Positions 22,086 to 25,513 of a stretch of DNA of 56,586 bases are shown here, piece by piece. The stretch is taken from positions 1 to 56,586 of the forward strand of contig DATJYL010000141.1 in assembly GCA_035499655.1 (NCBI GenBank), read 5' to 3'. The notes beneath the pieces are model-generated. The model did no database searches. It was not told the origin of the DNA and saw only the letters and a list, made by a program, of their open reading frames with translations. This DNA is from Pirellulales bacterium (lineage in GTDB: Bacteria; Planctomycetota; Planctomycetia; Pirellulales; JADZDJ01). The translations under genes and the position numbers were made by a program. The first letter of the stretch is position 1; every line of letters begins with the position of its first letter.

Positions 22086-23654
22086 ATGGCTAGTCCCGTT
22101 CGCACACGTTTCGCTCCCAGTCCCACCGGGTATTTGCACATCGGCGGCGTGCGCACGGCCCTGTTCAATTGGCTGTTTGCTCGGCGGCACGGCGGTCAAT
22201 TTCTGCTGAGAATTGACGATACCGACCAGGAGCGCAATGTGGCCGAGGCGCTCGCGCCCATTTTGCACGGCTTTCGTTGGCTGGGCATCGATTGGGATGA
22301 AGGGCCCGAAGTCGGCGGCCCGTTCGCACCGTACTACCAATCGCAGCGGCGCGATCGCTATCAGCAAGCCATCAACAAACTGCTCGACGGCGGTTTCGCT
22401 TACTGCGATTACGCCACCACCGAGGAAATTCAGGCCGAGCGCGCCGCCGCCGAAGCCGCCAAGCAGCCCTTTATTTACAGCCGCCGCTGGATGGCCGACA
22501 CCGTCGATACCCAGCGCCGCTTCGAAGCCGAAGGCCGCAAAGGCGTAGTCCGACTGAACATGCCGCACGAGGGGCAACTCGTCATTCACGACCTGATCCG
22601 CGGCGACGTGCAGTTCGATTGGGTCCGCGAGCAAGATCACGTCATCCAGCGCGCCGACGGCACGCCGCTATACAACCTGGCGACGGTCGTCGACGATCAC
22701 GATTTCCAAATTTCGCACGTCATTCGGGCCGAGGAACATCTTTCCAACACGCCGCGGCAGGTGTTCGTGGCCCAATCGCTGGGTTACCCGTTGCCCGAGT
22801 ACGCCCACGTGCCGTTTGTGGCCGAGCCCGGCAGCAAAAACAAACTGAGCAAGCGCAAGCTCGGGCAATACCTGAAGAACCAAGATTTCGCCCGACTGTA
22901 CAAACACGGCGTCGACATCGCGGCCAAGCTTAACTTGGCGGCGACCGCCGAAACGTTCAACCCGGTGATCGTCGATTTTTACGAGCAAGTCGGCTACCTG
23001 CCCGACGCCATCATCAACTATTTGATGCTGCTGGGCTGGTCGTTCGACGACAAAACGGAATTCTTCACGCGCGAGCAAATGATCGACAGCTTTTCACTGG
23101 AGCGCGTGAACAAAGCCCCGGCCAGCTTCGACCCCAAAAAACTATGGGCCTTCGAAGACCACTACCTGCAAGAGCTGCCGCTGAAGCAGAAAGTAGCCAA
23201 GACGTTGCCGTTTTTGCAACGCGCCGGATTAGTGGCTGAGCCGACGCCGTGCGACGTGGGCCCGCAACTGACAAAAATCGTTGCCGCCGCCGCCGACCGG
23301 ATAAAAGTGTTCGGCGACATACTGGACTACGCCGATTTTTTCCTGCCCGACGATCAGTTGCCCTACGACGAAGCCGCCTTCGACAAACGCATTCGCAATA
23401 CTCCCGGCGCCGCCGAAATTTTAACCGCGGTCAAAGAATTATTGGCCACGGTCGAACCGTTCGAACCGCCGCAACTGGAAACGACGCTGAAAGCTATCGT
23501 CGAGCAGCGCCAAATGAAAATGGCCGATCTGGTGCATCCGCTGCGCATCGCGCTGACCGGCAAAGGCGTCGGCTTCGGCCTGTTCGACACGCTGTCTATT
23601 CTCGGCCGCGAAAAATGCCTAGCCCGCATCGACCGAGCTTTGGCACGAAAGTGA
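22086..23654 (+). CDS. gltX: Glutamyl-tRNA synthetase
   Basis: 522 aa. Class I aminoacyl-tRNA synthetase that charges tRNA-Glu. The HIGH motif is HIGG at 18-21 in RFAPSPTGYLHIGG; the KMSKS counterpart is KLSKR at 253-257. The C-terminal anticodon-binding part continues to residue 522. AGAGGA lies 7 bases before the ATG. A separate glnS gene is present at 26017, so this enzyme is probably discriminating. No neighbouring gene is functionally linked. Confidence 0.97.
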   Translation: MASPVRTRFAPSPTGYLHIGGVRTALFNWLFARRHGGQFLLRIDDTDQERNVAEALAPILHGFRWLGIDWDEGPEVGGPFAPYYQSQRRDRYQQAINKLLDGGFAYCDYATTEEIQAERAAAEAAKQPFIYSRRWMADTVDTQRRFEAEGRKGVVRLNMPHEGQLVIHDLIRGDVQFDWVREQDHVIQRADGTPLYNLATVVDDHDFQISHVIRAEEHLSNTPRQVFVAQSLGYPLPEYAHVPFVAEPGSKNKLSKRKLGQYLKNQDFARLYKHGVDIAAKLNLAATAETFNPVIVDFYEQVGYLPDAIINYLMLLGWSFDDKTEFFTREQMIDSFSLERVNKAPASFDPKKLWAFEDHYLQELPLKQKVAKTLPFLQRAGLVAEPTPCDVGPQLTKIVAAAADRIKVFGDILDYADFFLPDDQLPYDEAAFDKRIRNTPGAAEILTAVKELLATVEPFEPPQLETTLKAIVEQRQMKMADLVHPLRIALTGKGVGFGLFDTLSILGREKCLARIDRALARK

Positions 23655-23737
23655 ATGAATCCGAAGCTATGGCCCAAAGGACGGACGTTGGCCACACGAT
23701 ATTTTTCGGAACAACATGGAAAATTAGGTGCTGAATT

Positions 23738-23830
23738 GTGGCCCAAAGGGCCAAGCTATGTCAGCCCAGGCCAACGGCCTGGGTCGATATCATCCCGCAT
23801 AATCAAATAAGCCCAAACGGGGCGAACTAG
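23738..23830 (+). repeat. 93-nt three-palindrome module, left copy
   Basis: Three palindromes in order: GTGGCCCAAAGGGCCAA, CAGCCCAGGCC-AAC-GGCCTGGGTC, and AGCCCAAACGGGGCGAA. The same order and total length occur in direct orientation at 24561-24653, on the other side of the Y1 transposase gene. A fragment of the first palindrome also lies near 23666-23690. Confidence 0.9.
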
Positions 23831-23839
23831 AGCCCCTTC

Positions 23840-24295
23840 ATGCCGCAATCGTTATCCAAGGTCATCGTTCACACGACATTCAGCACTAAGGGTCGTGTCC
23901 CGCTCTTACAAGATGTGGCTTTGCGGCGTGAACTTTACGCTTACCTCGCTACGGTGCTGAAGAATATCGATTGTCCCGCGCTGGTAATCGGCGGAATTGC
24001 CGACCATATTCACATTCTGAATTTGCTGGCGCGAACGCGCACGATTGCGGAAGTGATCGAGGAAGCCAAAACTTCCACTTCGAAATGGATCAAGACGAAG
24101 GCCGCATCGCTGCGCGATTTCCATTGGCAAAACGGTTACGGCATGTTTTCCGTCAGCGAATCGAAAGTGCCTGACGCGCGGCGATACATCGAAAATCAGG
24201 AGGAGCACCACCGCACATTGACTTTTCAAGAAGAATTTCGCGCGCTTTGCCAGCGGCACGGCATTCAGATCGACGAACGATATGTGTGGGATTGA
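23840..24295 (+). CDS. Y1 (HUH) transposase, IS200/REP-associated type
   Basis: 151 aa, full length. HUH motif H56-I-H58 in GGIADHIHIL; catalytic tyrosine Y116 in RRYIENQEEHH; N-terminal HTTFSTKGRVPLL fits family Transposase_17. These enzymes cut and join single-stranded DNA at hairpin-bearing ends. No accessory TnpB is present. The gene is flanked by direct copies of a 93-nt three-palindrome module and by further palindromes on its right. That is the layout of REP-associated tyrosine transposases (RAYTs), which are usually domesticated, or of an IS200-type element. Its catalytic residues are intact, so it could be active. Confidence 0.92.
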   Translation: MPQSLSKVIVHTTFSTKGRVPLLQDVALRRELYAYLATVLKNIDCPALVIGGIADHIHILNLLARTRTIAEVIEEAKTSTSKWIKTKAASLRDFHWQNGYGMFSVSESKVPDARRYIENQEEHHRTLTFQEEFRALCQRHGIQIDERYVWD

Positions 24296-24560
24296 TTTCA
24301 GTGCGCCCCGTTGGGGCTTTAGGTTTCGTGTGCGTCCGTAAACCCAGGCCGACGTCCCGGCGCGCCGGGACTTGGCCTGGGCTAGCATAGTTCAACCCGT
24401 TGGGCTGCATCTGCACGTCGTAACGACCAATGCAAAGTGCATTTACCAACATGCGCCTTTTGAAAATACATCGCCGGCTGAAATGTGGCCCAAAGGGCCT
24501 AATGCGGCCAGTCCGGGCTCAATGAAATTGGGCGATATCGTTGATTCGATATCCGAAACT
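24296..24560. repeat. Additional palindromes right of the Y1 transposase
   Basis: Gene-free. Contains GCGCCCCGTTGGGGCTTT (24303-24320, the third palindrome of the module inverted), a nested palindrome AACCCAGGCC...GGCGCGCC...GGCCTGGGC (24342-24384), CAACCCGTTGGGCTGC (about 24396-24411), and another GTGGCCCAAAGGGCC (24484-24498). They appear to be inverted or partial versions of the 93-nt module. Confidence 0.8.
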
Positions 24561-24653
24561 GTGGCCCAAAGGGCCAACCGATGTCAGCCCAGGCCAACGG
24601 CCTGGGTCAACGTGCCCAATCACTACCGTTAGCCCCAACGGGGCGAAATTAGG
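24561..24653 (+). repeat. 93-nt three-palindrome module, right copy
   Basis: Same three palindromes, same order and same length as 23738-23830, differing mainly in the spacers. Its last bases (GGGGCGAAATTAG) contain the TAA stop of the convergent HEAT gene (24649-24651). Confidence 0.9.
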
Positions 24654-25056
24654 ATTTCAGCTTGAGCTCGATTTGCTCAATCGCCTCATCAATCCACTGC
24701 CGAAATTCTTGGGCATCGCCTTGCTTGGAAAATTGTTTTGTCTGCGCTTGACGAAGAACTGCCAGTGATTCAGGCGACGCCAGTGCAACCAGCCCATCCA
24801 GCGCTTGTTGCCAAACCGCAGTGTTTGGATCGTGCAGCGCTTCGCCGAGCAACGGAATAATGGACAAATCGCGCCTCTGCCACAAAACTTCGATGGCGAA
24901 TTCACGAATACTCGGGTCTGACTCGCTGCGATAGAGCGCGACCAAATCAGGAACAACGCTACTGTCCGATTCCAATAGACCGAAGAATGCGGCGCTGTTA
25001 TCCTCGGCTCTTAGCCGTTCTAAATAATATGCGGCTACGTCAGAATAAACTTGCAT
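24649..25056 (-). CDS. HEAT-repeat protein
   Basis: 135 aa from ATG 25056. This start lies four bases after the stop of the upstream VOC gene, so the two are probably co-transcribed; an in-frame TTG at 25086 would overlap that gene. The sequence is helical and shows HEAT-like units (DLVALYRSESDPSIREFAIEVL, IIPLLGEALHDPNTAVWQQA, LDGLVALASPESLAVL). HEAT proteins bind other proteins; no enzyme motif is seen. The stop codon lies inside the right 93-nt repeat module, so the native C-terminus may have been altered. Confidence 0.8.
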   Translation of the reverse strand: MQVYSDVAAYYLERLRAEDNSAAFFGLLESDSSVVPDLVALYRSESDPSIREFAIEVLWQRRDLSIIPLLGEALHDPNTAVWQQALDGLVALASPESLAVLRQAQTKQFSKQGDAQEFRQWIDEAIEQIELKLKS

Positions 25057-25060
25057 CGGG

Positions 25061-25513
25061 TTAGCCCTGTTTCGCCTTCTCCGCAAAAAACTTCGCTGCC
25101 CGCTGCTGAATTTCCTGCGTCGTCAACACTTCCTTGTGCGTCGCGATCCACCACATGTTGCCGACCGGGTCTTTCACGCTGGCGGTGCGGTCGCCATAGA
25201 ACATGTCGGTCGGCTCGGTTTGCGATTCTCCGCCCGCCGCCACGGCCTGTCGGTAAGTGGCATCGCAGTCGGGCACATATAAATACAGTACGGTCGGCCA
25301 GGTGTGGTGTCCCGCCGGCGGCTCGCCAACCATCAACAGCGAATCGCCAATCCGCACCTGGGCGTGCAGCACGCCTCCATCGGGCCGCGTGAATTTTTCA
25401 CCCACTACGCCACCAAATGCCTGCTGGGCGAACTCGAGCAACCGGGCCGCATTGGGCACGACCAAATACGGCGTAACGGCGTGGCAATTTTCGGGGATGT
25501 AATTTGCTTTCAT
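25061..25513 (-). CDS. VOC family (glyoxalase/PhnB-like) protein
   Basis: 150 aa. The start at 25513 is chosen because GGAG lies nine bases upstream and the protein then begins MKANYIPENCHAVTPYLVV, the usual form. The vicinal-oxygen-chelate fold is indicated by TPYLVVPNAARLLEFAQQAF, HAQVRIGDSLLMVGE and the C-terminal DPVGNMWWIATHKE. PhnB-like members are small metalloproteins of often unknown substrate. Two paired beta-alpha-beta-beta-beta units fit the length. Substrate not predictable. Confidence 0.88.
   Translation of the reverse strand: MKANYIPENCHAVTPYLVVPNAARLLEFAQQAFGGVVGEKFTRPDGGVLHAQVRIGDSLLMVGEPPAGHHTWPTVLYLYVPDCDATYRQAVAAGGESQTEPTDMFYGDRTASVKDPVGNMWWIATHKEVLTTQEIQQRAAKFFAEKAKQG

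Follow-up and report, generated by a model that had tools for sequence, protein, structure and literature searches.

Among Y1 transposases, TnpAY1 subclass 1.2 was surveyed by Quentin et al. (2018, PMC6006769), who found it mostly in Cyanobacteria and Bacteroidetes. Its members carry the motifs DH[IV]H, WQ and Y---Q--HH, are about 150 residues long with a conserved C-terminal tail, and occur in low copy number with low identity among copies; IS-type hairpins are generally lacking and no REP is listed for them. In the known TnpAREP (RAYT) systems, cleavage is guided by the foot GTAG 5' of the hairpin, with AG as the presumed selector of CT (PMC8266576). An earlier study of the TIRtrons already mentions that some Y1 genes have double palindromic repeats (Di Nocera, 2013, PMC3733652). 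A further relevant element comes from RNA discovery: the Acido-Lenti-1 motif (RF01687) was rated 'probably RNA' (Rfam; Weinberg, 2010, PMC2864571), and its function is still little known in 2026 (PMC13298647). The literature that we covered, which is a part of the whole, treats it as a probable RNA, gives no function and makes no link to a transposase that we could find.

The locus described here lies in what we call the window, the whole 56,586-nt stretch of Pirellulales DNA analysed (contig DATJYL010000141.1, one of 244 contigs of a 4.54 Mb draft genome, 97% complete). A Y1 transposase gene, tnpA, sits between gltX (22086–23654) and a minus-strand HEAT-repeat ORF (24649–25086), surrounded by repeated modules of three hairpins, P1, P2 and P3. 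The features of the region 23,738–24,653 and its edge are as follows, with bit scores from R1, the covariance model of P1-linker-P2 that we used for genome searches:

23671–23683, plus strand: degenerate P1-like repeat 5' of module A, after gltX, with 2 mismatches to P1
23740–23752, plus strand: module A, P1 hairpin, GGCCC-AAA-GGGCC
23753–23764, plus strand: module A, linker, AAGCTATGTCAG, its 3' end forming the AG foot of P2
23765–23783, plus strand: module A, P2 hairpin, CCCAGGCC-AAC-GGCCTGGG, R1 match of 62 bits
23811–23823, plus strand: module A, P3 hairpin, imperfect, GCCC-AAACG-GGGC
23840–24295, plus strand: tnpA, Y1/HUH transposase of 151 aa (Y1_Tnp, PF01797)
24305–24317, minus strand: module B (inverted), P3', GCCCC-GTT-GGGGC followed by TTT, 9 nt past the tnpA stop
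24343–24381, minus strand: module B (inverted), P2', with an extra hairpin nested in its loop, R1 match at 24343–24406 on the minus strand, 40.9 bits
24393–24407, minus strand: module B (inverted), P1', CAACCC-GTT-GGGCTG
24487–24520, plus strand: decayed module, P1 intact (24487–24499), P2 degenerate
24563–24575, plus strand: module C, P1, in direct orientation
24588–24606, plus strand: module C, P2, R1 match of 59.5 bits
24632–24644, plus strand: module C, P3, GCCCC-AAC-GGGGC, near the stop of the minus-strand HEAT-repeat ORF

Since a complete inverted module (B) lies directly 3' of tnpA, the gene is bracketed by the inverted modules A and B, in the order P1-P2-P3-tnpA-P3'-P2'-P1'. Module C is an additional direct copy and 24487–24520 a decayed one. 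The first-pass annotation of this DNA, made from the letters alone, had described a Y1 transposase accompanied by a composite of several unlike palindromes, and this is borne out; it had also seen the flanking modules as direct, which holds for A and C, whereas the arrangement around the gene itself is inverted. The further inverted or partial modules that it placed to the right are present, with the complete inverted module next to the gene under-weighted. Nor do the direct modules have an identical length of 93 nt: P1 and P2 repeat from A to C at a spacing of 823 and P3 at 821, so P1 to P3 measures 84 nt in A and 82 nt in C.

Stems in the window are 5–6 bp in P1, 8 bp in P2 and 5 bp in P3, and P1 carries a GTGG foot. 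Modules A and C, folded as single-stranded DNA, each give three hairpins with z of about -3. P1 and P3 share a 5-bp stem, a 3-nt loop and the same orientation and are probably one hairpin type, so the 'three distinct palindromes' of the first-pass annotation may come down to only two types, arranged short-long-short. A search of the window for the P2 pattern CCCAGGCC-N0-30-GGCCTGGG gives 3 matches, against 0 in 100 shuffles. Single hairpins searched for with mismatches tell us nothing taken alone: GGCCCAAAGGGCC, at up to 2 mismatches, is found 6 times against 3.6 expected, which is not above chance by itself, and its three exact copies are all at the tnpA locus. We also note that, within 24632–24651 of the window, module C P3 lies about 5 nt beyond the stop codon of the minus-strand HEAT-repeat ORF and so might double as the terminator of that ORF.

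By its motifs, the tnpA product belongs with TnpAY1 subclass 1.2 as defined in Table 1 of PMC6006769. It matches Y1_Tnp (PF01797) with 68.6 bits against a cut-off of 23, and in an alignment of 33 members (A3) the catalytic H56 and H58 and Tyr116 are invariant, in agreement with the earlier claim that the HUH and tyrosine residues are kept. The HUH motif reads D55-H56-I57-H58, as in DH[IV]H; W96 and Q97 form an invariant WQ; and Y116, Q120, H123 and H124, within Y116-IENQ-EEHH, provide an invariant Y---Q--HH signature. Together with the length of 151 aa, close to the roughly 148 aa of the subclass, and the conserved C-terminal tail (F129, E132, D145, E146, Y148 and W150 are at least 90% conserved), these features suggest the assignment to subclass 1.2, and the low copy number and low identity among copies are also as in that subclass. 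The structure of TnpA was predicted with a pLDDT of 92, and Foldseek places this predicted structure within the Y1 HUH fold of IS200/IS605, with the ISDra2 and IS608 TnpA as closest matches (2xqc, E 9e-9; 2vic, E 1.7e-8); E. coli TnpAREP was matched too (4er8, E 1e-5).

The modules accompany this enzyme far beyond the window. We surveyed the loci of 80 homologues from a GTDB-based collection and 28 from the same order, the closest homologues found being mostly from Planctomycetota, for a generic P1-P2 doublet (a P1 with a 5-bp GC-rich stem and a loop of 3–5, then 8–15 nt, then a P2 with a stem of at least 7 bp). Such a doublet is near 84 of the 108 genes. In the 100 loci whose flanks reach 200 nt or more on each side it is found upstream in module orientation at 45 and downstream inverted at 50, with both at 30, while Markov shuffles of the same loci gave 0–3 and windows 1.5–3.5 kb away 0–2. 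Doublets flank 62 of the 80 homologue loci, and 13 of the 14 phylum-level groups have them, among these Planctomycetota (23/28), Verrucomicrobiota (13/14), Hydrogenedentota (4/5), Bacteroidota (8/16) and Gammaproteobacteria (4/4). Between P2 and the gene, P3 is present for 40 of 60 upstream and 42 of 58 downstream doublets, where shuffling leads one to expect 3.6 and 2.9. The spacing from P2 to P3 is about 23 nt across homologue loci, and the median distance from the start of P1 to the gene is 109/111 nt. The prominence of Planctomycetota and Verrucomicrobiota differs from the taxa of the subclass 1.2 survey, and so do the composite hairpin modules flanking most of the homologues found, as that survey listed no REP.

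The stems themselves vary from locus to locus, and yet the P2 arms on the left and right of the gene are identical in 22 of 30 loci (permutation mean 8.9, maximum 16). In alignment A2, 12 of 13 base pairs changed on both sides; as the doublets had been picked for perfect stems, this covariation is not proof of pairing, and we used the shuffle, distant-window and left-right controls instead. Directly 5' of P2 the foot xxAG is present in 94 of 114 flank doublets. Given the role ascribed to AG in the TnpAREP foot (PMC8266576), xxAG could plausibly act as a guide for cleavage. We also looked 3' of P1 and P3 for a universal cut site of the CT kind; many copies have CT or TT at about +5/+6, but this is not constant, and so we do not claim a cut site. 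Nor does the CT that known TnpAREP enzymes cut keep one position across all linkers.

The gene and its modules are also inherited together. The sister species G001, the only other genome of the genus compared, has an 86%-identical tnpA at the same gltX-glyoxalase site, with a forward module 5' and an inverted module 3' as in the window; two extra P1-like repeats stand where the window has its degenerate P1-like repeat after gltX. Within the genome of the window, a paralogue on contig C179 (59% identity) has the same module plan with other stems (TGGGCC/GGCCCA, CCAGGGGC/GCCCCTGG and GCCCC/GGGGC), and a paralogue on C73 (40% identity, YIQNQERHH) has a doublet family of its own. The C73 paralogue (L037, 900–2950), which keeps Y---Q--HH, lies within a dense array of alternating palindromes, CCCCAACC/GGTTGGGG and GGGCCTCCGGCCC.

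Across 397 genomes of the order, R1 at E≤1e-6 detects modules in 160 of 185 genomes with the gene (86%) and in 26 of 212 without it (12%; Fisher 1.5e-54, uncorrected for phylogeny). Palindromes widespread in genomes lacking this transposase were what the first-pass annotation had named as fatal to its reading, and the outcome is in favour of that reading. The exceptions at this threshold, 25 genomes with the gene and no module and 26 with a module and no gene, may reflect draft genomes, gene loss and the limits of the model.

Gene-free copies are dispersed through intergenic DNA, as in REP/REPIN systems. In the window's genome R1 matches the window copies and contigs C179, C99, C214, C197, C21 and C191. 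Module-only copies far from the gene, which the first-pass annotation had proposed looking for, are exemplified by solitary modules, complete from P1 through P2 to P3, at C214:14565 and at C197:22682; inverted pairs without the gene are found on C99 (three modules in all, no Y1 gene), C21 and C191. The sequences at C214 and C197 are alike between P1 and P3 and differ beyond these limits, so P1 to P3 behaves as the unit. In sister species G001 the orthologous intergenic region lacks the C197 module, and for the C214 site only one flank could be aligned. Doublets number about 15–20 in this genome, far under typical REP and REPIN counts, which are often above 100, and 37–87 in other complete or near-complete genomes; three genomes without the gene have none. 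On C21 (L201, 770–1110), two Acido-Lenti-1-type doublets of a C73-like stem family lie between the arms of a module pair, an arrangement of nested repeats of different systems.

Two further genomes, G164 and G204, whose chromosomes are closely related, differ by one clean presence/absence of 401 nt that holds an inverted module pair and, to either side of it, about 90 nt outside any module. Because of this extra DNA, the ends and cut sites cannot be read from the 401-nt difference, which could also be a deletion, and the comparison contains several rearranged regions besides. A rearrangement of about 48 kb (G164:C1:5206900–5258600, L235 and L252, versus G204:C1:5707400–5711000, L251) has module arrays at its breakpoints, as if inter-module recombination had moved the segment. 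Both genomes also contain a second family of modules, whose linkers include CAATTTGCATAG (G164:C1:2075459–2077306; L236, L240, L242), apparently tied to a second tnpA at G164:C1:2075954.

Could all this be a conventional insertion sequence of the IS200/IS605 type with complex ends, its gene-free inverted pairs being MITEs? The class 1 Y---Q motif, the predicted fold, the hairpins, the fact that IS608 and ISDra2 TnpA are the closest solved structures, and the inverted module pairs on C21, C191 and C99 and in the G164 insert would all suit such an element. However, the paralogues are just 59% and 40% identical and not recent IS copies, near-identical copies being absent; the gene occupies the same site in the sister species; and single modules disperse too (C214, C197). 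The gene is nearly absent from plasmids (2 of 72,556) and from phages, no tnpB was found among ORFs of at least 80 aa around it, and the IS200 equivalog model NF033573 gives 41.9 bits, under its cut-off of 55. The inverted modules around the gene likewise differ from IS200/IS605. We therefore regard a conventional insertion sequence as unlikely, though it is the best surviving of the alternatives.

The P1-P2 half of the module leads to Acido-Lenti-1. An Rfam scan of the locus returned matches to this family only, and these were the two direct doublets of the window, both full length and on the reverse strand: module C at 24606–24562 (28.4 bits, E 4e-4) and module A at 23783–23739 (27.0 bits, E 9e-4), both under the gathering cut-off of 37 bits. 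The RF01687 consensus, an 8-bp stem, a 12-nt linker and a 5-bp stem with a UUC triloop, is exactly the reverse complement of P1-linker-P2, that is, P2'-P1'. Matches at gathering level are found in the same genome at L036 (46.7 bits) and L201 (41.5 bits), and the gene-free copies on C99 and C21 are of this level. They are also found on both flanks of tnpA at L137, L154 and L111 and on one flank at L062 (from an acidobacterial genome), L089, L150 and L155. RF01687 is present in 152 of the 185 genomes with the gene and in 26 of the 212 without it, the gene is present in 91% of genomes with a strong match (E≤1e-7), and none of 14 control genomes has the motif. On the Bacteroidota contig L126 (5122–5464), two gathering-level matches lie about 2.5 kb from a tnpA homologue, not adjoining it.

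RF01687 is thus probably the P2'-P1' half of the module, and a DNA-level repeat rather than an RNA gene, although the papers that we covered present the family as a candidate RNA of unknown function and mention no associated gene. The converse reading, that the doublets represent a true small RNA or a UTR element regulating tnpA and other genes, with the transposase link secondary, draws on the 'probably RNA' rating in Rfam and Weinberg 2010, on the position of P3' directly past the tnpA stop, and on the report for ISPpu9 that transposase mRNA can be regulated by REP-like structures (PMC8450116). However, the doublets are found in both orientations around one gene (L137, L154, L111), so the upstream 'RNA' strand would be antisense to the gene, and they form inverted pairs and arrays, as REP DNA does. 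Stem mismatches comprise 6 G.T and 11 A.C over P1 and P2, with 13 others in P2, and G.U is not enriched on either strand. The numbers are small, and with the copies on both strands around one gene this pattern fits DNA better than RNA. An RNA element in the first place is, on this evidence, somewhat less probable still than a conventional insertion sequence.

Like the REPtrons, REPINs and BIMEs of RAYT/TnpAREP systems, the system has an HUH/Tyr enzyme, inverted flanking hairpins, dispersed gene-free copies and a conserved 5' foot ahead of a hairpin. The first-pass annotation had thought of RAYTs, and beyond the REPtron-like layout, GT[AG]G-like feet do occur, as GTGG at P1 in the window and as GTAG before P2 in 3 of the 114 doublets. 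Membership in class 2 is nevertheless already refuted, leaving a working analogy alone: the enzyme has Y---Q--HH instead of Y---NP, the RAYT model NF047646 gives 26.5 bits against a cut-off of 80, a profile search of the PDB matched IS608/ISDra2 TnpA and not 4er8, the foot is xxAG (TCAG at P2 in the window) and not the GT[AG]G guide of class-2 RAYTs, and the unit is a short-long-short triple unlike those of REP systems. A class-2 REPtron is therefore a very improbable reading of the locus. The same genome does hold a class-2-like Y1 gene with the motif Y-VRLNP (C80; L039, about 1910–2385), interrupted by a TAA stop; palindromes of a different family, GCGGCTG/CAGCCGC, flank it, and it is probably a dead REPtron. 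TIRtrons (TIRYTs) share a Y1 gene between inverted repeats, some of them double palindromic, but by description (PMC3733652) most of those published fall in subclass 2.1, where the protein has an HTH at its C-terminus and there is a GGGGWSAS motif.

That the hairpins are ordinary GC-rich terminators or chance palindromes beside a transposase, as the TTT after P3' and the position of module C P3 beside the HEAT-repeat gene stop might suggest, is hardly credible, since the order, spacing and orientation of the three hairpins recur across phyla on both sides of the gene with shuffles near zero, and the modules co-occur with the gene.

We conclude that the locus is probably a REPtron-like system, in which a subclass 1.2 HUH transposase is paired with a composite repeat of three hairpins that it would process in single-stranded form. 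The computed support consists of the anatomy of the modules, their conservation across phyla, the left-right stem match, the co-occurrence of gene and module and the dispersed gene-free copies; the catalytic residues are intact, and the modules are co-inherited and co-distributed with the gene. The cognate DNA would be P1 (short), a linker of about 12 nt, P2 (long), about 23 nt and P3 (short), with inverted copies flanking tnpA on either side, and with gene-free copies elsewhere, single or in inverted pairs. We propose that a dimer of the enzyme would recognise the folded hairpins in single-stranded, lagging-strand DNA, through the hairpin and the xxAG foot of P2. Tyr116 would cut beside the hairpins, near this foot, and then rejoin the strands. 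The modules would spread in trans while the gene mostly stays.

We also favour, with less assurance, the broader view that subclass 1.2 is the enzyme of short-long-short hairpin repeats spanning phyla, and that Acido-Lenti-1 is half of such a repeat and so a substrate in the form of single-stranded DNA rather than an RNA gene. It may be that an earlier description exists in literature beyond our partial coverage. The arrangement is real and widely conserved, and its main interest lies in what is likely a new identity for an orphan Rfam family. A candidate substrate emerges for a transposase subclass said to have none, and a candidate RNA family unexplained since 2010 gains a proposed identity. 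Annotation pipelines that call Acido-Lenti-1 an sRNA gene may be reporting DNA repeats, and the copies downstream of protease genes in Tannerella forsythia, guessed to be regulatory (PMC13298647), may likewise be transposase-linked DNA repeats.
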